A stretch of DNA of 64,000 bases. Origin: Gordonia hongkongensis (lineage in GTDB: Bacteria > Actinomycetota > Actinomycetes > Mycobacteriales > Mycobacteriaceae). Shown in pieces: positions 6,147 through 64,000 of the stretch. Below the pieces are notes generated by a model. The model did no database searches, was not told where the DNA came from, and saw only the letters and a list, made by a program, of their open reading frames with translations. The DNA lies in assembly GCF_023078355.1 (NCBI RefSeq), contig NZ_CP095552.1:62001-126000 (forward strand), read 5' to 3'. The translations under genes were made by a program, and so were the position numbers. Each line of letters starts with the position of its first letter. Position 1 is the first letter of the stretch.

Positions 6147-7190
6147 TCAGAGCGTCACGAGACTCGCTGCGGGCGTGTACTTCTCCCGACTGATCCGGCG
6201 CGGGGGCATCCGTCGCCGCTTGAGTGCCCGGACCCCCGCCTCGACCATCGCGGGCGGGCCGCAGAGATACGCGGCGTAACTGCGGCAGGAGTCGAAGTCC
6301 GTCATCATCGCGTCGCCGACGTAACCGGTGCGGCCGCACCACTGTTGGCGACTGAGGCAGGGCGTGTACCGGATGTTCGGGTGGTCGGTTGCGAGTGTGC
6401 GCCAGAAGTCGACGTCGTACAGTTCGGCCTCGGTGCGGACGCCGTGGTAGACGTGGATCTCGCGATCGGGGTCGGTTTCCAGCGCGGCTCTTGCGATCGC
6501 CTTCAGCGGCGCGAGGCCCGTACCCCCGGCGAGCAGGATGAGTCCGACTCCCGGCTCGTCCTCTCGATGACAGAAGTCACCCCAGGGCCCCGTCATCGAC
6601 ACCGACGATCCGACGGTCAGCGAATCGAAGATCCACCCGTCGGTGGCCAGACCGTCGGGTTGCCGGCGGATGTGGAACTCGAGGGTGCGGGATTCGCTGG
6701 GCGGGTTGGCCATCGAGTACGGACGTGTCTGGTCCGTGCCCGGGATCGACAACCCGACGTACTGGCCCGCGGTGAACTCGAACGGGTCGTCGAGCGACAC
6801 CGTCACGGAGACCGTGTCGTCGGCGACCGTGGTGAGGGAGCTGACGGTTCCGGCGAGATCGCGCAACGCGTGGTGGTGCGCGCCGGACTCGTCCGCGGGT
6901 GGTTCGACGACGATGTCGGTGGTGGGCGTCGACTGACACGACAGCACGTATCCCTGGTCCCGCTCGCCGTCGGACAGCACGGTGTCGGGGGTCGGCGGCG
7001 CGTCCACCATTCCGCCGGTGACGCGTACCTTGCAGGTACCGCAGGTTCCCTGGTTGCAGGAGTTGGGAATCCACACACCCTGACGTAGCAGGGCATCGAG
7101 AACCCGCTGCCCGGATCCGCAGGTCACCGAGGTCGTAGGCGTGTCGATGCGGAAGGTCGTCGGGTCGGACCGGGTCGTCGGGTCGGACAT
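6147..7190 (-). CDS. gcoB: GcoB-like P450 reductase (2Fe-2S, FAD, NADH)
   Basis: 347 residues starting at MSDPTTRSD; the frame is open further upstream but there it overlaps the P450 coding sequence. An N-terminal plant-type ferredoxin domain has Cys45, Cys50, Cys53 and Cys85. It is followed by an FAD-binding barrel (RPYSMAN) and an NAD-binding domain (GGTGLAPL, CGPPAMVEAG). This N-terminal-ferredoxin order is that of GcoB, the single-protein reductase of the GcoA aromatic O-demethylase. The start codon lies 2 nt after the P450 stop, so they are one operon. It carries electrons from NADH to the heme protein. Confidence 0.88.
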   Translation of the reverse strand: MSDPTTRSDPTTFRIDTPTTSVTCGSGQRVLDALLRQGVWIPNSCNQGTCGTCKVRVTGGMVDAPPTPDTVLSDGERDQGYVLSCQSTPTTDIVVEPPADESGAHHHALRDLAGTVSSLTTVADDTVSVTVSLDDPFEFTAGQYVGLSIPGTDQTRPYSMANPPSESRTLEFHIRRQPDGLATDGWIFDSLTVGSSVSMTGPWGDFCHREDEPGVGLILLAGGTGLAPLKAIARAALETDPDREIHVYHGVRTEAELYDVDFWRTLATDHPNIRYTPCLSRQQWCGRTGYVGDAMMTDFDSCRSYAAYLCGPPAMVEAGVRALKRRRMPPRRISREKYTPAASLVTL

Positions 7191-47768: not shown

Positions 47769-47910
47769 CCCGCCGAGCAATCGGAAAACCGCCGCTTACA
47801 CCGAATATCGGACAGACCCGTCGGGGCCCGATTCCCGCCGAGCTCGTGGTGAGCGTGCGTGAGACGCTGGGTGGGGGTCGTCCAGAACGGGGGGTGTCCC
47901 TATGGGTTTG

Positions 47911-48255
47911 TCAAGCAGCGGAAGCGATTGGGGTTCGGTAGGGCTCGCTGTGCTTGAGCATCGCGTAGAGGACGTCGCATCGTCGGCGTGCCAGGCAGAT
48001 GAGGGCGGCGTTGTGTTTCTTTCCTTCGGCGCGTTTGCGGTCGTAGTAGGCGCGGCTGGTGGGGTCGTGCAGTGCGGCGAACGCGGAGAGGAAGAAGGCT
48101 CGTTTGAGTTTGCGGTTTCCGAATCGGGCGGGGTGCTCGCCACGGATGGAGGTGCCGGATCGGTGGGTGACTGGTGCGATGCCGGCGTAGGCGGCCAGGT
48201 GGCCTGCGGTGGCGAATGCTGAACCGTCGCCGACTTCGAGGAGGATGCGGGCTGC
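47911..48255 (-). pseudogene. IS110-family transposase, C-terminal fragment
   Basis: About 113 residues: LLEVGDGSAFATAGHLAAYAGIAPVTHRSG, HPARFGNRKLKRAFFLSAFAALHDPTSRAYYDRKRAEGKKHNAALICLARRRCDVLYAMLKH. This is the transposase_20 domain end of IS110 proteins with its conserved Ser region. The upstream part is replaced in frame by a transglutaminase-like sequence, so the open frame is a chance fusion. Confidence 0.85.
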
Positions 48256-48405
48256 TGTGTAGGGGTCGTAGCGGATCTGGTTTCGCACCGCGGCAAAGTG
48301 GCTCCGCGCCATGTCTCGATCGTTGTCCGCGTCGCCGGTAGCATCACGGGTGGACGCCTGCACGGTGGCGTGGTCGAAGGCCAGGATACGTGACGCTGCG
48401 AGAAG
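48256..48405 (-). pseudogene. transglutaminase-like gene, N-terminal remnant
   Basis: Residues FDHATVQASTRDATGDADNDRDMARSHFAAVRNQIRYDPYT align with IEHATVATFTREAVGNATTDKDKAGRLFTAVRDAIRYDPYT of the complete gene at 49684-50355. The remnant ends where IS110 sequence begins. It is a second copy of the transglutaminase-like gene, truncated by IS110. Confidence 0.75.
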
Positions 48406-48558
48406 AACTGCAGGCTTCCCGGTTGCCTCCTGTCGATGTCACAGGACCCGGGTCAGCGGGAACCGGCGTCCTGCTGATGGTAATGCTCCTGCGTGCGTTT
48501 GTGTGAACGCGGCGGCCCTGCTTAGCGTCCTCCTCGCGGACTTGCCGCGACAGGCCGG
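48406..48558. other. short intergenic stretch, nothing recognised
   Basis: 153 bases between the transglutaminase remnant and the BtrH-like gene. The upstream part may be decayed 5' sequence of the remnant. Confidence 0.3.
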
Positions 48559-49617
48559 TTAGCCTGACAAGGATGCTGCGGCCTTTCGTAGTGACGCCTC
48601 CAGGGTCGTTTCCGCCTCGGGTAGAGCCGCCGCGAGGGTTGTGACGGATCGGAGCCGCTCGGATGGGGCGTGATCCTTCTGTACTGCTGCGCGTGCGACT
48701 GCAGTCCAGGATGTCGCCGCATGGTGGGCGTTGGCTGCAAGGATGGCGGTGGCGTGATCGCCGGTGAGGCGCGCGATTTCGTCGCAGCCCTGTGCCAGCA
48801 GTCGGCGGAACAGGCCGCCGCCGGTCCCCGCTTTCTCGATGAAGGCGCCGAGGCTGAATAAATGCATCTCGAGGTCGTCGGTCGACAGGGCTCCCCAGCT
48901 GCAGACGTCGGATGCGAGCGCGCTGGCAGCGTCGAGGCCGTGTGACCCGTGTTCTGCGGGCCCGGCGATCGTCGATGCGCCTGGGGTGCTCAGGCTCGCT
49001 GCGGATTGTGCGAATGCCTGTGCGGCCACCTCGAGAATCGAAGGTGGCGTCTGTGGCCAATTGATACGAAACAGCGTGTGTCGGGTTGGCTCCGGGAAGG
49101 AGGTCGAGCGGCGCGCGCGTGCGAGTGCGTCCAGTGGGACGCGTTGAAGGTCTTCGCGATCGTTGTCGGCGATGTACGCGACGCCTTGCGTCTCGTCGTA
49201 GCCGACTACAACGATGTCGTGGCGGCTCATGCGCAACTGGACCCGCAGGTAGGGGAGTTCTGCGATCTCCGCCCAGACCAGTGCAGGGCGTCCCTGATCG
49301 ATCTCGCCACGAAGGTTCTCCCAACCCTCGGCCGGGTCGTCTGTGGCAAGCACCTCGACGGTGCCGCCCAGACGGCGGGGGAGGTCGATCTCAAAATCAG
49401 GTCCTCGTCCGACTAAGTACACGGGTGGCATCAGCGCTTTTGATCGAATGTAGGTGAGGGAGAGGGCTCCGCCGAGGGCAAAGACGAGGCCCTCGTCGGG
49501 TGGGCCGTCGTAACCGAGCCCGGTCCACTCCATGAGGTCTCGCATCGCACCGGACCCACAGTGGCCACCCATTCGGTGCGGGTAGGGGTCGATCATCGAG
49601 GGGCCGGACACTGACAC
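48559..49617 (-). CDS. BtrH N-terminal / DUF4872 protein
   Basis: 352 residues from GTG 49617. GGHCGSGAMRDLMEWTGLGYDGPPDEGLVFALGGALSLTY with Cys near residue 20 is the BtrH_N papain-like signature; BtrH transfers a gamma-Glu acyl chain in butirosin synthesis. MSRHDIVVVGYDETQGVAYIADNDRE supplies the His and Asp/Asn region. The C-terminal half is helical, as in DUF4872. It lies 66 nt after the transglutaminase-like gene on the same strand, so the CYP153 operon ends with two papain-superfamily proteins. Acyltransferase or amidase activity is inferred. Confidence 0.8.
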   Translation of the reverse strand: MSVSGPSMIDPYPHRMGGHCGSGAMRDLMEWTGLGYDGPPDEGLVFALGGALSLTYIRSKALMPPVYLVGRGPDFEIDLPRRLGGTVEVLATDDPAEGWENLRGEIDQGRPALVWAEIAELPYLRVQLRMSRHDIVVVGYDETQGVAYIADNDREDLQRVPLDALARARRSTSFPEPTRHTLFRINWPQTPPSILEVAAQAFAQSAASLSTPGASTIAGPAEHGSHGLDAASALASDVCSWGALSTDDLEMHLFSLGAFIEKAGTGGGLFRRLLAQGCDEIARLTGDHATAILAANAHHAATSWTAVARAAVQKDHAPSERLRSVTTLAAALPEAETTLEASLRKAAASLSG

Positions 49618-49683
49618 GATCCTCCTGTGTTGAGGCGGTACGAAAATTGTCGATTGCCGGGCCGACGACTGAGGCAGACCGGG

Positions 49684-50355
49684 TTAGGCGTGGAATGCAT
49701 CTAGTGACGTCGCACGCTGCGTGAGTATAAGAGGGCCATAGGCCTCTTTGAGAGCCACCAGGATGTTGTCGAGAGGCAGGTCGTTGTACACACCTCTTTC
49801 GCGGACGTACTCCATGTGTGTTGAGCCGTCCGCGGAGTGAGCGTGGAGCAACGCGTCGCTGTCGCCGGTGAAGTCGATCGGGGCGACTCCGAACCGCGCG
49901 CACAGTTCCGAGTTGAACGCGGGTGTCGCCTTGAGCCACCGTCCGTCTATGTAGACGTGGCTGTACCCGTGATAGACGAAGACGTCGGTTCCCATCAGCT
50001 CACGTAGGGCGCCCGTTTGGAGGTGATTACGGACGTCGGCGAAGCCTAGCCGCGCTGGGATCCCGGCGGCGCGGAATGCGGCGGTAAGCACGACGGCCTT
50101 GGGGACGCAGTATCCACGCCCGGATTCGATTACATGGCTGGCCCGGTAGTGCTCTGGGTCGTTGGAGACGGTGTACGGGTCGTAGCGGATGGCGTCGCGC
50201 ACCGCGGTGAACAGGCGGCCGGCTTTGTCTTTGTCGGTGGTCGCGTTGCCGACGGCTTCGCGTGTGAAGGTTGCGACGGTGGCGTGCTCGATGTCGAGGA
50301 AGCGTGAACCCGTCAGCGCCGCCGGGCTGACCGCATTTGTCGGTGATGTGGTCAT
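49684..50355 (-). CDS. transglutaminase-like cysteine enzyme
   Basis: 223 residues. ESGRGYCVPKAVVLTAAFRAAGIPARLGFADV has the catalytic Cys83 in the classic transglutaminase-core setting, and YHGYSHVYIDGRWLKATPAFN gives His133. The Asp position is less clear. There is no signal peptide, so it is cytoplasmic. Its start overlaps the ferredoxin reductase stop by 4 nt, so it is translationally coupled to the CYP153 system, which is unusual. A truncated second copy lies at 48256-48405. Confidence 0.85.
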   Translation of the reverse strand: MTTSPTNAVSPAALTGSRFLDIEHATVATFTREAVGNATTDKDKAGRLFTAVRDAIRYDPYTVSNDPEHYRASHVIESGRGYCVPKAVVLTAAFRAAGIPARLGFADVRNHLQTGALRELMGTDVFVYHGYSHVYIDGRWLKATPAFNSELCARFGVAPIDFTGDSDALLHAHSADGSTHMEYVRERGVYNDLPLDNILVALKEAYGPLILTQRATSLDAFHA

Positions 50356-51548
50356 GGGGCCGCTCCGATCAATTCGGACCTGACGATCGGCGCTCGTTGT
50401 GCAATGGCGCGCTTGGCGGTCACGAAGTCAGCGGGTCTGTTGACGCAGTCAGCTGCAATCAGTTCTCCGGCGGTTAAGTAGTAGCAGGTGAAGTCGCGGC
50501 CATGGGCGGGGTTGCCGCTGACCAGCACCTCGTCGTATCCGGTGTTGAGCCCGGCGATCTGGAGTTTGAGGTCGTATTGGTCGGACCAGAACCATGGCAG
50601 TGCGGCGCGACCGGTTGTGTTGTCGCAGATTGTGGCCGCCGCGATCTTGGCGTGCTCGGTTGTTGCGGACACGCACTCGAGACGAACACGTCGCCCGTAC
50701 CGCTCGATTCGGTGGTTGGCGCAGTCGCCGGCTGCGACGATGTCAGGATCGCTGGTACGAGCGCGGTCGTCGACGAGGATGCCGTTTTCGACGTCGATGC
50801 CCGCAGCTGCTGCGAGCTCCGTGTTCGGAATGACGCCGACGCCGACGATGACCAGGTCAGCGGCCAGCGTCTCCCCGGACAGGACAACGCCGTCGACTCG
50901 TTCGTCGCCGCGGAACCCTTCGACCATTGCGTCGGTCCGTACCTCGACACCCTTCTCGCGGTGAATTCGATCGAAGAATTCCGACACGACGGGCGCCGTG
51001 ACACGTTCGAGTACGCGTCCTGCCGCCTCCAGGACGGTGACCTCGACACCCAGGGTTCGAAGCGAGGCCGCTGTCTCCAGGCCGATGTACCCGCCGCCGA
51101 CAATGACGACCCGCGAACCCGGGACCGCGGCGGCGCGGATGGCCTCGACATCGGTGGCGGTGCGCAGATAGTGCACGCCCGGCAGGTCGGCGCCGGGGAC
51201 CGGCAGTGCGCGAGCTCGAGCGCCGGTGCACAGGGCCAACTTCGAGTAGGACACCGCGTCGTTGTTGCCAAGAGTGACGGTTCGTTCGGCACGGTCGATC
51301 GAGGTCACGGTCCCGTCGACGAGCTCGATCCGTTGCTTGTCGTAGAACTGGCGGCTCCGAATCGCGACATCGTCGAGATGGCAATCGCCAGCCAGGTATG
51401 CCTTGGACAGCGGCGGCCGCTGATACGGCAGGCGGCCCTCGTCGCCGATCAGCAGGATGGCCCCAGCCCACTTCTCCTTGCGCAAATTGGCCGCCAGCTG
51501 TGCGCCCGCGTGGCTTGCGCCGACGATCACGACCCGATCAGTACTCAC
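50352..51548 (-). CDS. ferredoxin reductase of the CYP153 system
   Basis: 398 residues: FAD motif VVIVGASHAGAQLAANLR, LPYQRPPLSKAYL, NAD motif VVIVGGGYIGLETAASLRTLG, and DPDIVAAGDCANH near the end. This is the putidaredoxin-reductase type that passes electrons from NADH to a 2Fe-2S ferredoxin. Its ATG overlaps the P450 stop by 4 nt. Confidence 0.92.
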   Translation of the reverse strand: MSTDRVVIVGASHAGAQLAANLRKEKWAGAILLIGDEGRLPYQRPPLSKAYLAGDCHLDDVAIRSRQFYDKQRIELVDGTVTSIDRAERTVTLGNNDAVSYSKLALCTGARARALPVPGADLPGVHYLRTATDVEAIRAAAVPGSRVVIVGGGYIGLETAASLRTLGVEVTVLEAAGRVLERVTAPVVSEFFDRIHREKGVEVRTDAMVEGFRGDERVDGVVLSGETLAADLVIVGVGVIPNTELAAAAGIDVENGILVDDRARTSDPDIVAAGDCANHRIERYGRRVRLECVSATTEHAKIAAATICDNTTGRAALPWFWSDQYDLKLQIAGLNTGYDEVLVSGNPAHGRDFTCYYLTAGELIAADCVNRPADFVTAKRAIAQRAPIVRSELIGAAP

Positions 51549-52936
51549 GTCTCCGGCTTGGGAGTCAGACGGACCATCATCTTGCTGATCCCACGAACGA
51601 AGTTGGACTGCACGTACTCCGGATCACCGACCACCTCGATGTCGTCGAAGCGCTCGAGAAGTTCTTCCCAGAGAATGCGCAACTGCAATTCGGCCAAACG
51701 GTTTCCCATGCAACGGTGCACACCGAAACCGAACGCGATGTGGTTGCGAGCGTTGGACCGATCGATGATGAGCTCGTCCGGGCGGTCGAACACTCGCTCG
51801 TCGCGGTTGCCGGAGGCATACCACATGACGACTTTGTCACCTGCGCGGATGAACTGACCGTTGAGCATCACGTCCTTCTTGGCGACCCGACGCATGTATG
51901 CCAGCGGGGTTTGCCACCGGATAATCTCCGACACCGCATTGGGAATCAGATCCGGATTGGCTTTGAGTTTCTCGAACTGCTCGGGAAACTCGTTGAGAGC
52001 CAGCACTCCGCCGCTCATCGAGTTGCGGGTGGTGTCGTTGCCGCCGACGATCAGCAGCACGAGGTTCCCGAGGAACTCCATCGGGCTATTGTCGAGAAGG
52101 TTCTTGGTGTCCTCGTTGCTCTGCAGCATGGTGATGAGGTCGAATCCGGTCTCCTCGCCTGCCGCGGTCCGCGCGGCCTTGTCTCGCCACAGCGCACTCA
52201 AGCCCTGTGCCATCGCGACCATCTCGCGGAAAACTTTGTCGTTGTCCGATGGTCCGCCGTTGGCCTGCTCCATCGACGTGGCCAAATCCGACCACTGGAC
52301 GAGTTTGTGGCGCTGCTCGTAGGGGTAGTCGAGCAATGTCGCGAGCATCCGCGCGGTCAGTTCGACCGACACGGTCTGGACCCAGTCGAACGGTTCGTCG
52401 AGCGGTAGCTCCTCGACGACTTCCCGGACGCGAGACCGGATGAGGCCCTCCATCTCGCGCAGGTTCTTCGGTGCGACGACTCCCTGGACGGCGGCGCGCT
52501 GCTTGTCGTGCCGCGGCGGGTCCATGGCGATGAACATCGCGATATCCATGAAACGCGGGGGCCGACCGATGATGATGAACGGTTCGGCGGAGAACGCTTC
52601 ATGGTTTTTGTCGACAGCGATGATGTCGGCATGTCGAGTGACCGACCAGAACGGCCCGAAGGGACTGCGGGGCTGGAAGTGAACGGGCGCCTCATTGCGC
52701 ACACGCTCGAAGTAGGACCGCCACATGCCCTGTCGGTAGAGAAATGGGTTGCTCAGATCGATGTCAGTGAGTTCGACGTCCTCGACCGGCGGGATGGGGG
52801 TCTCGGTGAAGATTTTCTTGCCGTCGGTTCGGGTGACGATCCGGCGGGTCTTGTCATAGACGTGAGCGCCACGGATCTGCAGATCGATCGGGATCATGGA
52901 CTGCGCCTTCTCGGCGATCGCGGTGGTAATGCTCAT
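51545..52936 (-). CDS. CYP153-family alkane hydroxylase P450
   Basis: 463 residues. Oxygen-activation helix LIVGGNDTTRNSMSGGVLALNEFP (Gly298-Thr303), ExxR (Glu337-Arg340), WQTPLAYMRR, and heme loop AFGFGVHRCMGNRLAELQL with Cys409. The NDTTRNSM...NEFP and FGFGVHRCMGNRLAE segments match CYP153A enzymes, which hydroxylate the terminal carbon of medium-chain alkanes. The N-terminus is about 40 residues longer than the short CYP153 forms I recall. Ferredoxin lies 26 nt upstream and the reductase overlaps downstream, giving a complete three-component system. Confidence 0.93.
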   Translation of the reverse strand: MSITTAIAEKAQSMIPIDLQIRGAHVYDKTRRIVTRTDGKKIFTETPIPPVEDVELTDIDLSNPFLYRQGMWRSYFERVRNEAPVHFQPRSPFGPFWSVTRHADIIAVDKNHEAFSAEPFIIIGRPPRFMDIAMFIAMDPPRHDKQRAAVQGVVAPKNLREMEGLIRSRVREVVEELPLDEPFDWVQTVSVELTARMLATLLDYPYEQRHKLVQWSDLATSMEQANGGPSDNDKVFREMVAMAQGLSALWRDKAARTAAGEETGFDLITMLQSNEDTKNLLDNSPMEFLGNLVLLIVGGNDTTRNSMSGGVLALNEFPEQFEKLKANPDLIPNAVSEIIRWQTPLAYMRRVAKKDVMLNGQFIRAGDKVVMWYASGNRDERVFDRPDELIIDRSNARNHIAFGFGVHRCMGNRLAELQLRILWEELLERFDDIEVVGDPEYVQSNFVRGISKMMVRLTPKPET

Positions 52937-52962
52937 CTGAAAGTCGCTCTCATTCTCTCACT

Positions 52963-53283
52963 TCACAACTGGAACTCGGGGAGGTGAACGGTCAACCCGT
53001 CCCACTCTTCGCGCGCGGTCATCTGACACGACAGCCGCGAGTTGGCCTCACGCTCGGGGTGCATGCTCAACATGCCTTCTTCGACGTCTGTGCTGTGGCC
53101 GACGGTGTCGATCCACGCGCTGTCGACGACGACGTGGCAGGTTCCGCATGCCGCCTCACCGCCACAGTCGCCATCAATGCCCGGTATCGCCTGGTCGACC
53201 GCGGTCTGCATCAGTGACCTGCCGGGCATCACCGGCGCGGGGTAGTCCTCGCCGTCGTGGGTCACGTAGGTGATCGTGGCCAT
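52963..53283 (-). CDS. 2Fe-2S ferredoxin of the CYP153 system
   Basis: 106 residues from ATG 53283 (AGGAGGTGGCC upstream); the much longer open frame above is a shadow of the AraC gene. Adrenodoxin-type cluster motif DCGGEAACGTCHVVV (C-x5-C-x2-C) and the last Cys in RLSCQMT. First gene of the operon, handing electrons to CYP153. Confidence 0.93.
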   Translation of the reverse strand: MATITYVTHDGEDYPAPVMPGRSLMQTAVDQAIPGIDGDCGGEAACGTCHVVVDSAWIDTVGHSTDVEEGMLSMHPEREANSRLSCQMTAREEWDGLTVHLPEFQL

Positions 53284-53382
53284 GGCCACCTCCTTGTTCC
53301 TGGGTCGTAGAGATGAGTGTGCGCGCGGCGAATGTGGTCGATCCAGGTTCGGACGTCGCGATGTCTTGTTAACTTGGCTCAT

Positions 53383-54408
53383 ATGAGCCTTGTCGAGTCG
53401 GGGATGCCGCCGCTGGCGTTCGCCCAGCTCCTCGACAGCGGCGCCTTGGGCGCGGCGGAGACCCGAGCGTTCGAACGCATCATGGCCCGCGAGGGCGTCG
53501 ATCTCGCGGTCGTCATTGCGCGACAGGGCCAAGTGCCTGTCCGGTGGTTTCACGAGGTGTATCCGGCGATGGATTCCCAGCAGGGATTCCGGTTGGGCGT
53601 AGCGTTCGCCGAGCACGCTCAGCTCACCTCGTTCGGCCCCATCAGTTTGCCGCTGGTCAGTGCGGGTTCCGTCGTCGAAGTTGTTCAACTGCTTCAGTTC
53701 TTGCCCCTGATATCGACCGCGCTGAGCACCGAGTTCCAGCACGGAGATTCTGGACTGACGATCGCTCTGGCCGGGCGCACCGACAGCGCCGGCACCGATT
53801 GTTTCGCCGTCACCTACGGTGGTCTGGCTGTCCTGCGGTTGGTGGACATGCTCGCCGGTGCCGTCCCCTCCGTGGAGCTTCATCTGACATGCCAGGCGCC
53901 GGCAGACCTGATCGCCGTGGGTGAGATCGGCCATCGGATCGTTTTCAACGCGCCCGCGGCGTTCGTGCACATACCGGCTGCCGTGCTCTACGACGTGTGC
54001 CGTTTCTCCGACCCCGTGGCCTACCGGATCGGTATTGCCGAGCTTCGACGCGTCTACGAACAGCGTAGGCCCAGTTCCTACACGCAGCTGGTCCGCGCAC
54101 AGTTCGATGCCGACCCTGCCCGCGCTGACGGTGCTCGTATCGCGGCGGAGCTGTCGATATCGGTGAGCACACTCAAGCGACGCCTGAACGCCGAGGGCAC
54201 CACCCTGCGTCGCCTGCGGCAGCAGTTCGTCCAAGAACGGGCCACCGCGCGACTGCTGGATCCGGGCATCGGTGTCGGCGAGATAGCCGCAGAACTGGGG
54301 TACTCCGACGCCGCCAGCTTCTCTCATGCGTTCACACGGTGGGTCGGATGCTCCCCGACGCGGTTTCGCCGCGCACCGGCGAATCGGCAGGCAGCGCCGG
54401 GCATCTGA
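53383..54408 (+). CDS. AraC-family regulator divergent from the CYP153 operon
   Basis: 341 residues from ATG 53383. N-terminal arabinose-binding-like domain of about 200 residues (FGPISLPLVSAGSVVEVVQLLQFLPLIS), C-terminal HTH pair (RIAAELSISVSTLKRRLNAEGTTLRRLRQQF and VGEIAAELGYSDAASFSHAFTRWVGCSPTRFR). This OruR/VirS-like subgroup often controls P450 or lipid operons. The 99-bp gap to the ferredoxin gene would hold both promoters. It likely activates the alkane hydroxylase operon in response to the alkane or its product. Confidence 0.88.
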   Translation: MSLVESGMPPLAFAQLLDSGALGAAETRAFERIMAREGVDLAVVIARQGQVPVRWFHEVYPAMDSQQGFRLGVAFAEHAQLTSFGPISLPLVSAGSVVEVVQLLQFLPLISTALSTEFQHGDSGLTIALAGRTDSAGTDCFAVTYGGLAVLRLVDMLAGAVPSVELHLTCQAPADLIAVGEIGHRIVFNAPAAFVHIPAAVLYDVCRFSDPVAYRIGIAELRRVYEQRRPSSYTQLVRAQFDADPARADGARIAAELSISVSTLKRRLNAEGTTLRRLRQQFVQERATARLLDPGIGVGEIAAELGYSDAASFSHAFTRWVGCSPTRFRRAPANRQAAPGI

Positions 54409-54413
54409 GCAGG

Positions 54414-54893
54414 TCAGTCCGCGCGAAGAAGATTGACGAAAAAGCTGTCTACCGTGGAGGTGTCGGCGTAGCGCGCGAAGTGCATGAGATCGACTTTCAC
54501 GAACTCGCCGGTGGCGGAAAAGTAGGTCTCGCCGTCCACAGTCCCGCTCGCCCCGATGTGCAGGATGTGATCGGCGTCCTCGTCGATGCACGCCGTAAGA
54601 CGTACTGGTACGTGGAGGGGTACCGGTCGGCGGTACTTGACGGTCAACGTGCGCGTGACGGCCGGGGTGCCGGCGATCCACAGCGTGAATCCCATGATGT
54701 CGTCGCACGCGGCCGAGATAGCGCCTCCGTGCGCCAAACCTGGTCCACCGGAATGCTTGGTGGTGAAAGAGTGATCGGCAAAAACGCGGTCGCCGTCGCG
54801 GTACACCTCGAGCTGCAGGCCGCTGGCATTCTCCGGCCCGCAGCCCATGCACGATGGGGAGTGTGCGGGCAGTTTGGTGGGTGCTGACATCAC
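54414..54893 (-). CDS. PaaI-type hotdog thioesterase (second copy)
   Basis: 159 residues, paralogous along its length to the gene at 15427: SPSCMGCGPENASGLQLEVYRDGDRVFADHSF, GGPGLAHGGAISAACDDIMGFTLWIAGTPAVTRTLTVKYRRPVPLH. Convergent with AraC (5-nt gap) and divergent from a TetR remnant, with a strong palindrome between them. The same thioesterase type next to two separate operator-controlled loci suggests an acyl-CoA recycling role in both. Confidence 0.85.
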   Translation of the reverse strand: MMSAPTKLPAHSPSCMGCGPENASGLQLEVYRDGDRVFADHSFTTKHSGGPGLAHGGAISAACDDIMGFTLWIAGTPAVTRTLTVKYRRPVPLHVPVRLTACIDEDADHILHIGASGTVDGETYFSATGEFVKVDLMHFARYADTSTVDSFFVNLLRAD

Positions 54894-54930
54894 AGTCCTC
54901 GAATCGATGCTCGTGCCGGTAGCAGACCAC

Positions 54931-54950
54931 TACCAACGGTATCGTTGGTA
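54931..54950. promoter_or_regulatory. 20-bp palindromic operator upstream of thioesterase and TetR remnant
   Basis: TACCAACGGTATCGTTGGTA has perfect 8-bp arms (TACCAACG and CGTTGGTA). It resembles the ACCGACGGTATTG site at 39548 and its reverse complement at 40270. The corresponding TetR gene here is truncated, so the site may now be free or be read by the paralogue at 39599. Confidence 0.7.
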
Positions 54951-54992
54951 GAATGCCACATCCACGCTGGACCAACAGCGTGAGGAGACCTG

Positions 54993-55128
54993 GTGGCGGT
55001 GAGCATCAATGGCCTCGACGACGTCGATCCGCGGCGGGTTCGTTCCCGGAACCGTCTGCTCGACGCCACGGCGGTGTTGCTGCGCAGCGGGGGAGTGGAG
55101 GCTGTCACCGTCGAGGCGGTCACGAGCG
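54993..55128 (+). pseudogene. TetR regulator remnant (second TetR-MmpL locus)
   Basis: GTG start, then GLDDVDPRRVRSRNRLLDATAVLLRSGGVEAVTVEAVT, nearly the same as residues 7-46 of the TetR at 39599. It stops abruptly in the first HTH helix at about 55128, where MmpL sequence starts in another frame. A deletion removed the rest of tetR and the start of mmpL. Confidence 0.88.
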
Positions 55129-55371
55129 TTCCCGCAGCTGGAGACAGTCGTGCGGCAGCAGTCGGTCGACCCGATCCCTGCGGGAGTGCCGTCGTTTCAG
55201 TCATTCGACCGGATGGGCACGGCGTTCGGGGAGAAAGGCGCCAAGACAACGGCGTTTATCGCCATGGAGAACCGTGGCGGCCTCACCCCGACGGTGCGTG
55301 CACGCTACGACGAGCTTGTCCAGGAACTTCGTGGCACCACCGCCGATGTCGCTTCCGCCCGCGACCTGGTG
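55129..55371 (+). pseudogene. MmpL remnant (second TetR-MmpL locus)
   Basis: FPQLETVVRQQSVDPIPAGVPSFQSFDRMGTAFGEKGAKTT... about 81 residues of the first external loop, aligned to residues 57-136 of the MmpL at 40312. It ends at ARDLV, where sequence leads into the dszC end. It is a closer relative of the 40312 than of the 29353 protein (FPQLETVVRQQ). Confidence 0.85.
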
Positions 55372-56461
55372 GGGGGATCGCCGATGTGTGTTGTCGAACT
55401 TGTCAGGATGTAAAGCCTGGGACGGGATCACGGTCGTTCTAGAAGTACTGGCCGACGTCGGCAATCTTGTAGGCCACCGGGTCATGCAGGCTGTGCGTCC
55501 GGATGTTGCGCCAGAACCGGTCCAGCCCCAAACGCGGGTGTGTCCCACGCGCCCCGATGACCTCGAAGATCCGGCTGCCTATAGACAGACCCGCCTCGGT
55601 GGCCAAGACCTTCACCCCCGACACCTGAACCATCAGCGAGGCCCGATCGGCGGGTGCCAAAGCATCACCCTTCTCCCAGATCCGCTGCACCGCGTGCGAC
55701 GCATCGCGGGCCGCCGCGTCAGCGCCTTGTAGTTTAATCGCAAGCTCTCCAAAGGTCCGAACTACGTATGGATCCTGCGTGGCCTCAGAAACCCCCGCAG
55801 GGGTCCATGGCCGTGCGTGCTCCAGCGTGTATTCGCGAGCGGAGTCCAGCGCTTCGGCGGCAATTCCTATGTAGACGTGCGAGAAGATCAGTTGCACCAA
55901 CGGGCCGAATAGGCTGGCGCGCCTATAGCCGAAAAAGTCGGTGATCACGCTGTTCGGAGCCCCCAACACCTCGTGCGGAAGCACTTGAACATCTTTGAAG
56001 TCCGTTGTACCGCTGTCGGTCCGCCGCATCCCCAGGGCTTTCCAGTCATTGTTGGGACGCACTCCCCCTCGGTCGGTGGGTATGACCGCTGTGATAATTC
56101 CCGACCGCTCGGGTGAGTCATCATCCTGCGCCACGCCAAACACCAGAAGCAGATCGGATCCGAGCGCCCCGCTACAGAAATGCTTGGTCCCGTTCAGCAC
56201 GTAACCACCGTCGTCGCGTGGGGTTGCACGCACCTTCCAGTCGAGAATGTGACTGTTGTTCTCGCTCAACGCGTTCCCCGTCCAGGAACCCTGCGCCACG
56301 CGGCGGTAAGTGGCGTCGCGCTGCTCCGGCGAGCCGAGGAGTTCGATGAAGGCTGCACACACGAGGTGGTATCCGTAGAGGTGGCCAAGCGAGCCGTCGA
56401 CCTTGGCAATCTCGCGGATTACTGCGAAGACTGAATCGCCCCGGGTTTGCTGGAGGCTCGG

Positions 56462-56806
56462 TTAGTTGGTTCCAGCGTTTGCGGGGACCGGGTTCTCACG
56501 GTAGCTGGTGACGGTGTGGGTCGACCAGTAGGCGCTCTCGTACTCGACGGGTGGGACGTGTCCGATCTCGCCGTGCAGGCGGCGGTGGTTGAACCATTCG
56601 ACGTACTCAGCGACGGCGATCTCGACCTCGCCCACACCTGCCCAGCCGCCTCGCGGGCGCATCACGGGGTTACGGATGCATTCGGCTTTGAACAGCGAGT
56701 TGAACGCCTCAGCCATCGCGTTGTCGTATGAATCCCCTTTGGAGCCAACAGATGTCACCGCTTCGGCTTCGGCCAGTCGTTCGGTGTAGCGGATGGCTCG
56801 GTATTG
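56462..56806 (-). pseudogene. IS3 copy A4 orfB, C-terminal part
   Basis: [48 protein letters not shown]... to the normal C-terminus. It is separated from its N-terminal part (58303-58923) by IS30, exactly after the Gln codon of HHSDRGVQ. One residue differs from copy A3 near the end (THTV for TQTV). Confidence 0.88.
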
Positions 56807-58302
56807 GGCGCGTTCAATCGGTCGATGCAACACTGGGTTGTTGTAGCGAGTGTAGTTGTTCGCCAAAGACTTCGGCGGGAGTTTTCCATCCAAGGACTTT
56901 TCTAGGACGGTTGTTGAGGGTGTAGGCGATGGCCTCGAGGTCCTCAGCTGACCACCGCGACAGATCAGTTCCCTTAGGAAAATATTGGCGCAGAACACCA
57001 TTGGTGTTCTCGTTGGATGGTCGCTGCCACGGTGAGTGCGGATCGGCGAAGAACACCTGCGTTCCGGTGTCCATCGCGAACTGGGCGTGAGCGGACAGTT
57101 CCTTGCCGCGATCCCACGTCAACGTTTTGCGCAACTGCTGCGGCAGCGCGGCGATCGACGCTGTCAGTCCTGCATTCATCGCGATGGCACCGTAGCCACC
57201 GAGTGCGGGCCCGTTCTTCACAGGCGGCTGCTCACCCCAGCCCTGCTGGCGTGGCAGATGCACCAGAAGTGTTGCACGACTACGACGTTCAACGATCGTG
57301 CCGATCGCCGATCTCCCAGTTCCGATAATCAGATCACCCTCCCAGTGCCCGGGGACGGCACGGTCCTCGGCCTCGGCAGGGCGCTGACTGAACACGACAT
57401 CGGAGGTGACGTGACCCTGCGGCTTGTTGCGCGAGCGGGCCCGCGGCTCCCTCAGTGCACGTCCGGTGCGCAGGCACGCGACCAGCTCACGTTTGAGCGC
57501 GCCGCGGCCCTCGATGAACAGGGACTGGTAGATCGCCTCGTGACTGATACGCATGGATTCATCATCGGGGAAGTCGACCTTCAAACGCTGGGAGATCTGC
57601 TCTGGACTCCACGCCAGCGACCACCGCCGGTTGGCCCGGTGCGGTTTGTTAAGCCCCTTCCATGGCGGTGGCGTGGGGCCCGCAGCGATCGTGCCATCGG
57701 GACGGCGGACAACGCCGGCCAGGCGGTCCTGTACGTACTCCCGCAACTCGACGTGGGCCACGAGCTTCGCTGTTTTCGGGCGCTTGGCGGCCTGCTGGGC
57801 TTTCCACTGCGCCACCAACGCCCGATACTCGAGCTTCCCGCTCCTGGTTGCGGCGTTGCGCCGTAGCTCACGCGAGATCGTGGCCGGACTCCGCCCGATC
57901 CACCGTGCGATCTCACGCACCCCACGATCCTGGGCGCGTAGCAGCGCGATCTCTTCCCGTTCGGCGAAGGATAGATAGCGGCCCGAAGGCTCATCCAGAC
58001 TCAGCGGCCTCATGCCGCCAGCGTGGCGGAACCAGCGTGTACCCACCGGCACCGACACACCGACAGCGATCGATGCCTGTGCCGTGCTCACCCCCGTCGC
58101 GACCACCCGCCAAAACTCACGTTGCACCTGCCGCGACGGCTCCGGCCGCCCCGGCGATCGCATCGCCGGCCGAAGTGCACGATCAGCACGCCACTGCCGA
58201 CGAACACCTACCGCCACATCGCTGGTCCTCCGACTCCAGTCCGCCGTAGCCACCGCAAACACCTCCATGATCATGGTGTTGCGACGACCAGTTGAATCCG
58301 CC
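56807..58302. mobile_element. IS30-family element copy 2, 1496 bp
   Basis: Inverted-repeat ends GGCGCGTTCAAT and GGCGGATTCAAC, with a 3-bp duplication TTG (56804-56806 and 58303-58305), which is the CAA Gln codon on the coding strand of IS3 orfB. Clean insertion, identical to copy 1. Confidence 0.93.
56814..58274 (-). CDS. IS30-family transposase (copy 2)
   Basis: 486 residues, identical in sequence to the product of 26684-28144, with intact HTH and DDE motifs (GHWEGDLIIG, TWDRGKEL, RPSNENTNG). The start codon lies 28 bp inside the element end, so the terminal repeat probably carries the promoter. Confidence 0.93.
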   Translation of the reverse strand: MIMEVFAVATADWSRRTSDVAVGVRRQWRADRALRPAMRSPGRPEPSRQVQREFWRVVATGVSTAQASIAVGVSVPVGTRWFRHAGGMRPLSLDEPSGRYLSFAEREEIALLRAQDRGVREIARWIGRSPATISRELRRNAATRSGKLEYRALVAQWKAQQAAKRPKTAKLVAHVELREYVQDRLAGVVRRPDGTIAAGPTPPPWKGLNKPHRANRRWSLAWSPEQISQRLKVDFPDDESMRISHEAIYQSLFIEGRGALKRELVACLRTGRALREPRARSRNKPQGHVTSDVVFSQRPAEAEDRAVPGHWEGDLIIGTGRSAIGTIVERRSRATLLVHLPRQQGWGEQPPVKNGPALGGYGAIAMNAGLTASIAALPQQLRKTLTWDRGKELSAHAQFAMDTGTQVFFADPHSPWQRPSNENTNGVLRQYFPKGTDLSRWSAEDLEAIAYTLNNRPRKVLGWKTPAEVFGEQLHSLQQPSVASTD

Positions 58303-58923
58303 TTGCACTCCGCGGTCGGAGTGGTGGATCAGCCCGGCCACGTCGTGGCCGGCACGCGACCGTGCCCACAATCCCATGTTCAGGGCGTCGAGGGCGAGGT
58401 CGGTGTGCATGGTGGTCGAGACCTGCCAGCCGACGACCATCCGCGAGAACACGTCCAGGACGAACGCCGCGTACACCCAGCCCGAGTGGGTGCGGATGTA
58501 GGTCAGGTCCGCCACCCACAACGCGTTCGGTGCCGCCGCGGTGAACTGACGGTTGACCCGGTCAGCCGGCCGGGGTGTTTCAGCTCCCTCGCTGCGCGTG
58601 GTCTTGCGTGTCTTGAGTCTCGCTATCCCTTGCAGCCCATCGGCTTTCATCAATCGCTCGACGGTGCAGCGGGCAGCACTATGGCCCTGTCTGCGCAATT
58701 GGGCATGCACCTTGCGGGCACCGTAGACGCCGAGGTTGTCGGCATGCACCGCGCGGACCTGGGTAAGGAGCTCCCGGTCACGCACCACACGAGGCGCCTC
58801 GGTCTTCTGGGGGCTCAGGTGGGCTCGTACCGTGGACGGAGCGATCTGGGCGGACGTATCGCGCAATGCCGCACAGATCGGATCGACTCCGTGTTCATCG
58901 CGGTGAGCCGCGACGAACTCCAC
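58303..58923 (-). pseudogene. IS3 copy A4 orfB, N-terminal part
   Basis: Identical to 28173-28793: residues 1-207 of OrfB up to HHSDRGVQ, followed by IS30 sequence. The frame runs on into IS30 as GGFNWSSQHHDHGG, a chance fusion. Confidence 0.88.
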
Positions 58924-58925
58924 GA

Positions 58926-59252
58926 TCAGCGCTGTGGGCGGTCGATCTCCGCCGCAAAGAAAGCCGAAGCCTGCTTCAAGATCGTGTTCGCTCGCCGCAG
59001 TTCACGGTTCTCCCGCTCCAACGCCGCGATGCGGTCAGCGTCCTCACTCGTGGTGCCCGGGCGGACCCCGCCGTCGATCTCGGCCTGACGAACCCAATTG
59101 CGCAACGCCTCGGGATGGACTCCGAGCTGATCGGCGATCCGCTTGATCGCACCTCTCGACGAATCGGGATCTCGTCGCGCTTCACATGCCATCCGGGTGG
59201 CCCGGTCCTTGAGTTCCTCACTGTACTTGCGTGGTGCTGCCATGCTCTCCAT
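58926..59252 (-). CDS. IS3 copy A4 orfA
   Basis: 108 residues identical to the other OrfA copies; intact HTH and leucine zipper. It lies within the IS that disrupts dszC. Confidence 0.87.
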   Translation of the reverse strand: MESMAAPRKYSEELKDRATRMACEARRDPDSSRGAIKRIADQLGVHPEALRNWVRQAEIDGGVRPGTTSEDADRIAALERENRELRRANTILKQASAFFAAEIDRPQR

Positions 59253-59513
59253 CCTTCACAGGTTCGAGAGCCTCCGACAGACCCGGGGCGGTTCAGACCG
59301 TCGGCCAATCTGCGCCCCAACCACCGTGCTCCTCGGGTACCGCGAGCGCCAGCAGACCACTTAGGCGTAAGTCCTCTTTCTCACGGGTGGCTGGCCCCCC
59401 ATCGCGATCCCGTTCGACGATTCCCTCCCGCCAGCTTGCAGCAAGGTCTCGAGCCACCGCGAGAGGATCGCCCGCCCGCCGGTCGGTGGCCGCCGCCGTG
59501 TCGTCGGTGACTG

Positions 59514-60608
59514 TCATTCGTATTCTCCAATCGCTGATGTGCCGGCCGCGCATGTACGCAGGCTCGTCTGCAGAAATTCCGGGGCCGACCAATCAGTCAG
59601 GTCGATCGCCTTATCCACCAGATCGTGGTCGACCAGGTACCGCTGTGTCGCAGCAAGGACAGTGAGCGCATCGTGGTCGAGGGTGGGTACTAAGTTGTCG
59701 GTGAAGTGCTCGCCGAAACCGCGTGTCACCGCAGTCTCGCTAACACCGAGGTTGCGGGCATGAATCGCGACTGTCTCGGTCAGATGATCGCGCGCCCAGG
59801 AGCCTGCCCGGACCACCGTATCCACCAGATGCTGCACGAGTGACGGGTTCTTATCGACGAGTTGCGCGCTGATTGTCCAAACGCTGGCGTAGTGGCTTGT
59901 CCTGTCCAAGCTCAGGTCACGCAGCGGTCTAACACCGGTGAGGTCTTCGAACTCCGCGGACCACGGAAGCCAGCTGAATAGCGCATCGACCGTCCCCCCG
60001 GCAAAGACTTGTGCCTGATGGGCCCCGACGGCGGGAAAGAGGTCCGAACCGTTCACTGATGCCGATGCGCTGAGTCGGTCCTGCGGTAAGTCGACTCCCG
60101 CCGTCTCAATGGGTACGAGCTCGATATCGTTTACTGTTACGCCGGAGTGACGAAGGGTGTGCTGCAGGGCTCGCGCCTCCCAAGTGCCCAGTGCGACGAG
60201 AGTCTGGCGCCACGGGTCGAGCTGTCGGTAGTCACCAAGGTCGCCGCGCAGGATCCGGATTGCCGATGCGGATACGCCGACACGATGCCCCGCCAGTTGC
60301 TCCGGTGCGGTCAGGGTGGGGTCGGCCGCGTAAAAGCCCAGCTTTCCCTCGAACAGGGTGACGCCCAGGAGGCGTGTGCGACCCGGTGCACGCAGGCCCT
60401 CACTCACCAACGGCGGGATCTCTCCGCCGAATCGGGTGTAAGCGGGATGATCGTAGGTGAAGTGCAAGGAGCCCAGCGGCCCTCCCAGCACGTCCAGATT
60501 GATGCCAGCCTCGGCGAGCAACTGCGACTCGCGGCCAACCAGCAGGGCGTTGGGAACAGGGCAGTTGCTGTACGCGAGGGTGTGGACCGCTGAGCTGGTG
60601 TCGGTCAC
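59514..60608 (-). CDS. dszB: DszB-like 2'-hydroxybiphenyl-2-sulfinate desulfinase
   Basis: 364 residues from GTG 60608, which overlaps dszA by 4 nt; canonical DszB has 365. The nucleophile is Cys16 in [13 protein letters not shown], with His49 in [21 protein letters not shown], Arg59 and Gly62. These lie exactly 11 below the known Cys27, His60, Arg70 and Gly73, so the active site is complete. Other strong matches to remembered DszB are [42 protein letters not shown] and NLGVS. DszB releases sulfite from the sulfinate, the last 4S step. It is the only dsz gene left whole here. Many positions differ from the Rhodococcus protein, so it is a divergent orthologue. Confidence 0.93.
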
Positions 60609-61886
60609 AGCGCCGCCGCCCCGCTTGGCAGTTCCAGGCCGAGGTGGTCGCGCAGCGTTGATCCCTCATACTCGTCGCGGAATACCCCACGTTCTTGCAA
60701 CAGCGGCACCACCTGGTCGACAAAGTCCTCGTAAACGCCGGGCAGATAGGCGGCGGAGATGATGAACCCATCAGCCGCTCTCGCATCGAAGTACTCGACC
60801 AGTCTGTCGGCGATCTGGGTGGGCGTTCCTCCCCACTGCGGGACAAAACCCACGTTCGTGCCATAACGCTTTCCAAGGTCGGCCAGTGTCAGATCCTCGC
60901 CGTCGCTCGCAACCGTGGAGAACATGTGGAGCATGGTGGGGATGTGCGCGTCCCCCAAGCTCGCGACGATGTCGGAGTACTTCGCGTCTAGGGGGAAGGC
61001 GGACAAGTCGATTCCACTATGACTCGACAACGTCGACAGACCGACCTCGGGGTGGACGAGACCGTTGATGTATTCGAGGCGATCGCGTGCGATCGCCTCG
61101 GTCTCCCCAAGTATGGGCATGACAGCTGTGAAAACCTTCGTGGCGTCGGGGTTGCGACCCGCGGCACTCACTTGCCCCTTGATGTCCTGGTACGTGCGCT
61201 GCATCATCTCCAGCGTCGGCGAGATGCTGAACACGGCGTCGGCCCACTGGCCCGCGAAACGTCTACCGCGAGGCGACAATCCGGCCTGGAGGAGTACTGG
61301 CTCGCGCTGACTTGAAGGGGGATTTGCAGGGGGCCGCGCACGTCGAACCAGTCACCACGGTGATCGACGTAATGAACTTTCTTAGGATCAGCGAACCGGC
61401 CGCAGATCTTGTCCAACAGCAGCGCATCATCGTCCCACGAGTTCCACAGCTTACGTACGACCTCGACGAACTCGTCCGCGCGGTCGTAACGGGTGTCGTG
61501 TTCAAGATGAGCATCGATTCCGAAGTTCTTTGCCTCTGAATCGTTCAGCGATGTCACGATGTTCCACGACACCCGCCCGTCGGACAGGTTATCCAGCGTT
61601 GCCAGGATACGGGCGACGTGAAACGGCGGGTAATACGTGGTGGAGATGGTGGCTCCAAGTCCCAACCGGTCGGTCACGGCGGCCATCGTCGCCACCACCG
61701 TGGCGGGCTCGAGTGCGATCGCGCCCTGGCCGCCCAGTCCGACGCCTGTTTGCAGATCATGGCCGTAGCTGTCCTCGACTGCGAGAGCATCCGGAAGGAA
61801 AAGAAGATCAAACTTTCCGCGTTCAAGGGTCTGAGCGATCTTCTTATAGTATGCACCGGAAAGAAAATCGTTAGTTGCTGCGGATC
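60605..61886 (-). pseudogene. dszA: dszA (DBT-sulfone monooxygenase), 5'-truncated and frameshifted
   Basis: DszA-like sequence in two frames: [20 protein letters not shown], then [17 protein letters not shown] and [13 protein letters not shown] down to [17 protein letters not shown], then after a shift [17 protein letters not shown]...[16 protein letters not shown]...[14 protein letters not shown]...HLGLELPSG. One C is missing from the run at 61317-61321 (five, six expected). About 25-30 N-terminal residues are replaced by the IS630 end at 61889. DszA is the FMNH2-dependent enzyme that opens the sulfone ring. With truncation plus frameshift the gene is not functional. Confidence 0.92.
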
Positions 61887-61888
61887 TA

Positions 61889-62410
61889 GTGTCCTGAGTC
61901 ATTAATTTCCGTTCGGTTGTTAGGCTAGGGAATGGCAACCCGGGGTCCGCGAGCAGTGGATATTGTTCTGACTGATGACGAGCGCCGTGAGCTCGAAGGG
62001 TGGGCGCGTCGGCGAACGACGGCCTCGGGTTTGGCGATGCGCTCACGAATCGTTCTCGCCGCCGCTGATGGCGGTTCGAATACTGAAGTGGCACAACGAC
62101 TCGGCCTCAATCGCAGTACCGTGCGGCGCTGGCGAGGCCGGTTCGTCGAGCACCGCTGCGAGGGGTTGCTCGACGAACCCCGGCCTGGGCGACCTCGCAC
62201 CGTCGACGACGAGCAGATCAAAAACTTGATCACCGCGACTCTCGAGACCACTCCGAAGAATGCGACACACTGGTCGACGCGGGCGATGGCCGAGCATCTC
62301 GACATGTCACAGTCAACCGTGTCGCGTGTGTGGCGGGCGTTCGGATTGGCTCCGCACAAACAGGATTCGTGGAAGCTGTCGAGAGATCCCTTGTTCACCG
62401 AGAAGGTCCG
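61889..62410. mobile_element. IS630-family element, truncated second copy
   Basis: Same end as the 12119-13250 element (GTGTCCTGAGTCATTAATTT) after TA at 61887-61888, running 522 bp, then cut after AAGGTCCG by IS3 element C. Opposite orientation to the first copy. It has removed the promoter and 5' end of dszA. Confidence 0.9.
61932..62410 (+). pseudogene. IS630 transposase, N-terminal fragment
   Basis: The first 159 residues are identical to the 363-residue transposase at 12116-13207 (through LSRDPLFTEKVR), then the frame enters IS3 element C. The HTH region is kept and the DDE catalytic domain is lost. Confidence 0.9.
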
Positions 62411-62463
62411 TGAATCACCCCTGGTTTGATGCCGCTTCCTTCTGAGTCAGGAAGGATGAGCAC

Positions 62464-62775
62464 ATGCCTAAGAAGATCGATCCGGAGGTCCGTTCGAGGG
62501 CCTTGCGTTTGCTGGAGGCGCACGGCGGCGAGTACACGTCGTTGACTGCCGCGGCAGAGGCGATCGCCAAGCAGGTCGGTGTCGGTGGGGAGACGGTACG
62601 TCGGTGGGCCGTGCAGGCCCAGGTCGATGCCGGCGCCCGGTCGGGGACCACGTCGAAGGAGTCCGCTGAGATCAAGCGACTCAAGGCGGAGAACAAGCAA
62701 TTGCGAGAGGACGTTGCCATTTTGAAAGCGGCGACGACTTTCTTCGCGGGGGAACTCGACCGCCGCAACCGATGA
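62464..62775 (+). CDS. IS3 element C orfA
   Basis: 103 residues: MPKKIDPEVRSRALRLLEAH with an HTH (TAAAEAIAKQVGVGGETVRRWAVQAQV) and a zipper (IKRLKAENKQLREDVAILKAAT). ATG has AGGAAGGATGAGC upstream. Overlaps orfB by 4 nt. Confidence 0.9.
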   Translation: MPKKIDPEVRSRALRLLEAHGGEYTSLTAAAEAIAKQVGVGGETVRRWAVQAQVDAGARSGTTSKESAEIKRLKAENKQLREDVAILKAATTFFAGELDRRNR

Positions 62776-63431
62776 TCGTGGCGTTCATAGATCAGATGCG
62801 CGCCAACGGTTTTGCGGTCGAGTCGATCTGTCGGGTCTTGCGTGAGCAGGGCTGCATGATTGCCGCACGAACCTACCGGGCATCGCGAACACGCACGCCT
62901 GCCGCTCGGACCGTCTCCGATGCCCACGTCGTCGATGCGGTGCGCACCGTGGTCTGGCGCACCGATGACGACGGCCGGCGGAAGATGACTCCGGAGGGCC
63001 TCTACGGGCGGGTGAAGATGCGCGCCCATCTGCATCGGACAACACTGCCCGGGGTGTCCTATGGCGCCGTTGATCGAGCGATGAAAGTGCTAGGCCACAA
63101 CGGGATTCGAAGGTCCAAGGGAGTCCGTACGACCGTGCGGTCCGCTGATGGTGTACGTGCGGAGGATCTGGTGAATCGACAGTTCAGTGCCGTCGAGCCG
63201 AACCGGGTGTGGGTGACCGATTTCACCTACTGCCGGACGTGGGCGGGGTGGGTGTACGTGGTGTTCATCATCGACGTGTTCTCACGTCGGATCGTGGCGT
63301 GGCACGCCTCGACGTCGAAGACGGTGGAGCTGGTGACGGTCCCGCTTCGGATGGCGCTGTGGCAGCGGAAACGAGAGGGTCATCCGGTGAAAGCTGCTGA
63401 GCTGATTCATCATTCGGATGCTGGAAGTCAG
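62772..63431 (+). pseudogene. IS3 element C orfB, truncated by IS30
   Basis: 220 residues: IVAFIDQMRANGFAVESICRVL, LVNRQFSAVEPNRVWVTDFTY, VYVVFIIDVFSRRIVAWHAST, ending at AELIHHSDAGSQ, then IS30. The last catalytic Glu region is absent from the window. Confidence 0.9.
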
Positions 63432-64000
63432 GGCGGATTCAACTGGTCGTCGCAACACCATGATCATGGAGGTGTTTGCGGTGGCTACGGCGGACTGGAG
63501 TCGGAGGACCAGCGATGTGGCGGTAGGTGTTCGTCGGCAGTGGCGTGCTGATCGTGCACTTCGGCCGGCGATGCGATCGCCGGGGCGGCCGGAGCCGTCG
63601 CGGCAGGTGCAACGTGAGTTTTGGCGGGTGGTCGCGACGGGGGTGAGCACGGCACAGGCATCGATCGCTGTCGGTGTGTCGGTGCCGGTGGGTACACGCT
63701 GGTTCCGCCACGCTGGCGGCATGAGGCCGCTGAGTCTGGATGAGCCTTCGGGCCGCTATCTATCCTTCGCCGAACGGGAAGAGATCGCGCTGCTACGCGC
63801 CCAGGATCGTGGGGTGCGTGAGATCGCACGGTGGATCGGGCGGAGTCCGGCCACGATCTCGCGTGAGCTACGGCGCAACGCCGCAACCAGGAGCGGGAAG
63901 CTCGAGTATCGGGCGTTGGTGGCGCAGTGGAAAGCCCAGCAGGCCGCCAAGCGCCCGAAAACAGCGAAGCTCGTGGCCCACGTCGAGTTGCGGGAGTACG
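63432..64000. mobile_element. IS30-family element copy 3, partial at the window edge
   Basis: Starts GGCGGATTCAACTGGTCGTC after the CAG Gln codon of HHSDAGSQ in IS3 element C. Opposite orientation to copies 1 and 2. Runs off the window after 569 bp. Confidence 0.9.
63460..64000 (+). CDS. IS30-family transposase (copy 3), N-terminal part
   Basis: 180 residues visible, identical to copies 1 and 2 in the N-terminal extension and HTH (VREIARWIGRSPATISRELRRN). Starts 28 bp inside the element end, as in the other copies. The DDE domain lies beyond the window. Confidence 0.9.
   Translation, partial: MIMEVFAVATADWSRRTSDVAVGVRRQWRADRALRPAMRSPGRPEPSRQVQREFWRVVATGVSTAQASIAVGVSVPVGTRWFRHAGGMRPLSLDEPSGRYLSFAEREEIALLRAQDRGVREIARWIGRSPATISRELRRNAATRSGKLEYRALVAQWKAQQAAKRPKTAKLVAHVELREY

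Follow-up and report, generated by a model that had tools for sequence, protein, structure and literature searches.

The window, a stretch of 64,000 nucleotides from Gordonia hongkongensis (NZ_CP095552.1, positions 62,001 to 126,000), contains a divergent, broken dszABC operon. The operon is most probably (with a probability of about 90%) a non-functional remnant of a complete operon of the 4S desulfurization pathway, belonging to an actinobacterial lineage distinct from that of Rhodococcus IGTS8. It is an added member of the known dsz family and no new system. In the portions of the literature on dsz genes and Gordonia desulfurization that were accessible, no published description of this operon was found. 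The features of the region are collected in Table 1.

Table 1. Features of the dsz region and its surroundings (positions within the window).
Feature	Position	Strand	Basis or remark
dszA remnant-dszB-dszC (two parts)	55404-61886	minus	ORFs and junctions
dszA remnant without its start, cut at the IS630 boundary; reading frame changes near 61316	60605-61886	minus	ORFs, PDB match, relatives
dszB, whole, 364 aa, GTG start	59514-60608	minus	ORF; equivalents of catalytic residues at 16/49/59
dszC 5' part, roughly codons 1-73, ending with the target duplication	59296-59517	minus	NF043015 match, 104.8 bits
dszC 3' part	55404-56431	minus	in-frame stop 55439-55441, second stop 55404-55406
IS3-family element split by an IS30-family element into 56432-56806 and about 58303-59295	56432-59295		ORFs, repeats, junctions
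IS630-family element, left part (N-terminal portion of the transposase at 61932-62429; right end approximate)	61886-62432	plus	ORFs, repeat
Second IS3-type element inside IS630 (ORFs 62464-62775 and from 62772 on; left limit approximate)	62433-64000	plus	ORFs
MmpL/RND transporter fragment joined to a cut TetR gene	55126-55379, within 54953-55410	plus	comparison with a Tsukamurella plasmid
Laterally shared island, part in the window	3559-64000, continuing to about 69065		identity to a second Gordonia genome (G055)

Gene Order and Family Identity

The genes follow the order dszA-dszB-dszC with 4-nt overlaps, as a preliminary description of this DNA had stated: the dszA stop and the dszB start share GTGA (60605-60608), and the dszB stop and the dszC start share ATGA (59514-59517). 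The same description took the genes for a decaying 4S-pathway operon, and this identification is upheld by PDB and NCBIfam matches, together with the lesions in dszA and dszC. In a PDB sequence search, the best match of DszB was the solved DszB structure 2de2 (E 2.4e-134, residues 6-351 of 364), the 3' part of dszC matched the solved DszC (E 1.3e-141), and the 3' part of dszA matched 5tlc, "dibenzothiophene desulfurization enzyme A" (E 3.3e-111). Such E-values exclude chance. The best NCBIfam model of both dszC pieces was the DszC equivalog NF043015, with 581.8 bits for the 3' piece and 104.8 for the 5' piece, each below the cut-off of 850 bits that applies to the whole protein. No DszB model was listed by NCBIfam for the DszB of the window, which scored 52.3 bits with the SsuA model (cut-off 163.5).

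A functional 4S operon would contain three intact genes in A-B-C order; here the order is kept and dszB alone is intact, so the operon does not qualify as functional. A search of the whole genome, as had been suggested earlier, revealed no second intact dsz copy. DszB had a single match there, and beyond the operon itself the nearest DszC-like proteins were 36% and 35% identical and the nearest DszA-like protein 47%.

Lesions in dszA and dszC

The remaining dszA starts right at the outer margin of the IS630 terminal repeat, with an apparent ATG at 61902 that falls inside the repeat, so that the loss of the 5' end to IS630, recognized in the preliminary description, is evident from the truncated gene abutting the outer end of the inverted repeat. 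The missing stretch corresponds to residues 1-28 of BdsA: the DszA of G055, which has the same start as the window gene, aligns to BdsA (5tlc) from residue 29, and the alignment of the Williamsia DszA starts at residue 3 and includes both F12 and H20. This N-terminal stretch is present in the DszA of eight of nine relatives, the ninth (L035) having no readable start. For the BdsA of B. subtilis, the accessible part of the published study gives a loss of more than 90% of activity for H20F and of about 80% for F12A (PMC5819316). The stretch with F12 and H20 is lacking in the window DszA, as judged from the G055 copy with the same start.

At about 61316 the window and G055 differ in length by one base. 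The dszA of G055 is uninterrupted: starting at an ATG that lies in the IS630 repeat, its frame runs through 432 codons, and a protein could be made from it. The frameshift reported earlier is present in the window but absent from the near-identical G055 copy, and it does not belong to a common decay. Because G055 is without it, the frameshift is a mutation confined to this strain or a mistake in the assembly. Even without the frameshift, dszA is predicted to be broken in G055 too, its start being lost. In the search with the G055 protein, DszA entries were clustered at 90% identity, a level at which the frameshifted and open versions of dszA are not told apart.

IS630 continues past the edge of the window, where its right part contains an ORF (L030:1286-1792), and the two 22-bp inverted repeats of the element (61886-61907 and L030:1771-1792) are 95% alike. 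The second IS3-type element, located inside IS630, is not a copy of the IS3 in dszC; another copy of the IS30 element has inserted into it. A simple insertion of IS630 into dszA was considered and rejected, as the missing dszA start does not lie at the far flank of the element. When the N terminus of the Williamsia DszA was searched by tblastn in the 14 kb that follow the window on its right, no hit had an E-value below 0.26, and the far flank contains an NCS1-type transporter gene and a phosphotriesterase-like gene (names read from translations). Given the absence of the dszA start beyond IS630, a deletion or a recombination between IS elements would be needed.

The splitting of dszC by an IS3 element that itself holds an IS30 element, proposed at the outset, is corroborated by a 3-bp target duplication, GAC, flanking IS3 within dszC (56429-56431 and 59296-59298). 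The gene had also been described as shortened at its C-terminus; it does end early, but the terminal sequence is not lost. Past the in-frame stop at 55439-55441, the same frame reads NDRDPVPGFTS (11 residues) followed by a stop, like the DszC C terminus of all seven relatives read. With the IS3::IS30 insertion and the in-frame stop, DszC is not encoded by an uninterrupted gene.

Copies on a Shared Island

Comparison with G055 and with plasmid pGKT3 shows that the operon lies on an IS-rich island of about 65 kb that was recently shared between two species and occurs on chromosomes and on a plasmid. The genome of the window (G000) and G055 are 97.5% identical over 3559-45581 and 99.6% identical over 45580-69065, whereas aligned blocks longer than 1500 bp outside the island are 83-92% identical and a distant locus 88-89%; this difference points to recent sharing. 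The island starts at about the same distance from the contig start in both genomes (66-67 kb). Over 47782-64000 the window differs from G055 at seven alignment positions (99.96% identity over 16 kb), and the frameshift site is the only one of these that falls in the dsz genes. Both genomes have lost the dszA start at IS630.

Plasmid pGKT3 of Gordonia sp. KTR9 (NC_018583) carries window positions 28173-56806 at 98.2-99.8% identity, with no differences over 55391-56440, the dszC 3' part including its stop, where the plasmid annotation gives a 307-aa DszC fragment. The junction of IS3 with the dszC 3' part and the dszC stop are thus common to G000, G055 and pGKT3; the IS30 within that IS3 occurs only in G000 and G055. 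Within pGKT3 75000-124000, a search for dszA, dszB and the start of dszC found none of the three. The base triplet beyond the pGKT3 IS3 differs from the target duplication, as would be expected if a deletion or rearrangement had begun at the IS. Among all plasmid records, pMyong1 was the only plasmid matching DszB above 60%, and dszA DNA had no match above 80%.

At the other side of the operon, the end of dszC directly adjoins the fused TetR-MmpL/RND fragment, where the dsz operon meets a P450 cluster. In the Tsukamurella plasmid (L053) the P450 cluster runs on into the TetR-RND transporter pair, both genes are whole, and the compared stretch has no dsz annotation. The fusion in the window appears to have arisen by deletion. 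Window positions 48442-55127 contain the P450/ferredoxin/FAD-reductase cluster and an AraC-type regulator; this segment shares 99.9% identity with pGKT3 and 94.8% with a plasmid of Tsukamurella tyrosinosolvens.

The Intact dszB Gene

As first described, dszB is whole and has kept its active-site residues. C16, H49 and R59 of the window protein align with C27, H60 and R70 of the Rhodococcus-type enzyme, the catalytic residues of DszB. At canonical position 65 the window protein has His, in contrast to Gln in the Rhodococcus-type enzyme. The gene is open and identical in G000 and G055, and DszB is at least widespread, because its 90% cluster (P0001) stands for 48 public contigs. To judge from the sequence, dszB is most likely a leftover gene that has not yet been hit by damage; its retention under selection is an improbable alternative.

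Selection could have kept dszB as a stand-alone aromatic-sulfinate desulfinase, expressed from the IS630 side and fed by intermediates of neighbours or of other monooxygenases. This would agree with the intact catalytic residues, with the identity of the gene in two genomes of the genus, with the size of its cluster and with the presence of DszC-like and DszA-like proteins elsewhere in the genome. However, the sharing between the two genomes is so recent that identity is uninformative on selection, and in pGKT3 part of dszC remains but dszB is not seen; this explanation is improbable. It is likewise quite improbable that DszB, after the loss of its partners, persists across Gordonia by scavenging sulfite from intermediates of other enzymes or organisms, although, if true, this would mean that a fragment of a pathway can remain useful.

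The operon might also still work in some cells, if the IS elements excise or if its lesions are mere errors of assembly, as the one-base frameshift in dszA, absent from G055, could be. Nevertheless, the IS3 junction and the dszC stop recur in separate genome records, the dszA start is lost in both chromosomes, and IS3 and IS630 seldom excise precisely, making a still-working operon very improbable.

Lineage and Distribution

In a tree built from 59 DszB rows, the protein of the window grouped with those of Williamsia serinedens and of a G. polyisoprenivorans MAG (support 100/99), and this group fell within a 12-row clade with mycobacterial operons from which the canonical Rhodococcus type was excluded; some long branches of the tree may be misplaced, and the window row was not among the long rows listed. 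A lineage separate from IGTS8, as claimed initially, is supported by this placement, the identity of DszB to the canonical Rhodococcus type being 60%. The accompanying statement, that near-identity to IGTS8 is the rule among known dsz operons, fits the cultured strains of earlier publications but not present databases, in which many DszB lineages occur. A DszB protein search, with the best 7998 candidates scored, yielded 69 hits (90% clusters), most of them 36-65% identical to the window DszB. In the DszA and DszB searches the candidates having the largest number of words in common with the query were scored, and two of the protein searches, that for DszA among them, listed the best 120 matches. 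In the accessible parts of published studies, dszC is given as identical in Acidovorax, Agrobacterium, Brevibacillus and a Rhodococcus (PMC3366232), and three DBT-desulfurizing Gordonia strains are stated not to use the dszABC-encoded 4S pathway (PMC9861168).

Within a sample of 59 genomes of the genus, nine (its own included) had a DszB match at E 0.001 or better, and DszB proper occurred only in G000 and G055 (100% identical), the remaining matches being 25-39% identical. At E 1e-60 or better, matches were present in 5 of 401 genomes of the family sample, again including its own. The distant DszB-like proteins of the genus (G055:C1:4789035-4790024, that is L027, together with L020-L026 and L028) are possibly of the benzothiophene type found in the bds genes of strain C-6; none was found in the genome of the window.

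That the genes would form a sulfur-acquisition operon of the SfnB/SfnG type or of the benzothiophene type (G. terrae C-6 bds) is hardly credible, since distant homology to SfnB, SfnG and SsuA is outweighed by the far higher score of the dszC 3' part with the DszC model than with SfnB (581.8 against 223.6 bits), by the low identity of the other DszB-type matches in the genus, and by the organization of C-6 bdsABC, for which the accessible part of the description gives another gene order, with the desulfinase gene first, and low homology to 4S enzymes (PMC3868597). Closer relation to SfnB/SfnC-type enzymes and near-identity to IGTS8 were the two objections foreseen in the preliminary description, and neither was encountered.

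Among the loci compared, L013 has a dszA split by extra DNA, L035 is without most of the dszA 5' half, and L018 holds only part of dszB, with a masked stretch there. A 3-kb contig with a mycobacterial-type dszA and part of dszB (L017, JAHFGT010000078.1) belongs to a MAG labelled Candidatus Omnitrophota, likely owing to a binning error.

A Proposed Course of Decay

In the ancestral operon, DszC would have oxidised dibenzothiophene or a similar thiophene, DszA would have opened the sulfone, and DszB would have released sulfite from the sulfinate. The IS3 insertion into dszC and the dszC stop probably preceded the split of the G000, G055 and pGKT3 lineages, because junction and stop are common to all three. 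IS30 would have entered IS3 in the chromosomal lineage (G000, G055), and dszAB would have been lost separately in pGKT3. The dszA start, including residues needed for substrate binding, was lost at the IS630 end. With DszA and DszC dead the pathway would be unable to run, and dszB was presumably carried along on the IS-rich island as it moved between Gordonia chromosomes and plasmids.

The locus thus appears to offer a snapshot of the death of a catabolic operon on a mobile island, with insertion and stop first and further IS damage later; the broken copy spread between species, and a plasmid relative is without most of the operon. Decay of dsz operons may be common, and a dszB match alone is no proof that a strain desulfurizes. 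The Gordonia-Williamsia operons represent a dsz branch away from IGTS8, and the window DszB and the intact Williamsia relative are candidate biodesulfurization enzymes.

Comparison with Known dsz Operons

The nearest intact operon seen is dszABC of Williamsia serinedens DSM 45037 (L010, NZ_JAMTCG010000005.1), which has the same gene order but, unlike the window, three open frames without IS damage. A gene for an MmpL-type transporter (read from its translation) ends at position 6467 of that locus, just upstream of dszABC and in the same direction. Identity to the window is 90-94% for DszA and 89% for the DszC 3' part, but only 72-73% for DszB and the DszC start. When the protein distance between window and Williamsia was scaled to three outgroups, the ratio was 0.29 for dszA and the dszC 3' part (bootstrap 0.23-0.37) and 0.67 for dszB and the dszC 5' part (bootstrap 0.57-0.78). 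Both operons are similarly distant from the outgroups, which makes a one-sided speed-up unlikely. The simplest reading, somewhat favoured by these distances, is that dszB and the dszC start were replaced by recombination. This reading is weakened by the M. peregrinum-M. palustre pair, in which identity likewise varies from piece to piece (A 88%, B 74%, C 5' 62%, C 3' 72%), and by the saturation of synonymous distances; rate differences or several exchanges are possible. As a test of recombination, dS was set aside, being near saturation between window and Williamsia in every piece (1.0-2.05).

The pGKT3 relative resembles the window in its IS3/dszC 3' junction, its 307-aa DszC fragment and the high identity of the shared segment, but differs in the absence of IS30 and of recognizable dszA, dszB and dszC start within the stretch searched. 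The dszABC operons of pMyong1 (M. intracellulare subsp. yongonense) and of M. peregrinum have their frames open and share with the window both gene order and the 12-row DszB clade, at identities of 63-64% for DszB, 77-83% for DszA and 67% for the DszC 3' part. The canonical Rhodococcus-type dszABC (IGTS8-like; L036 from G130; PDB 2de2 and 3x0x) has the same gene order and catalytic residues as the window, whereas its DszB is 60% identical (213 of 353 aligned residues) and falls on another branch of the tree.
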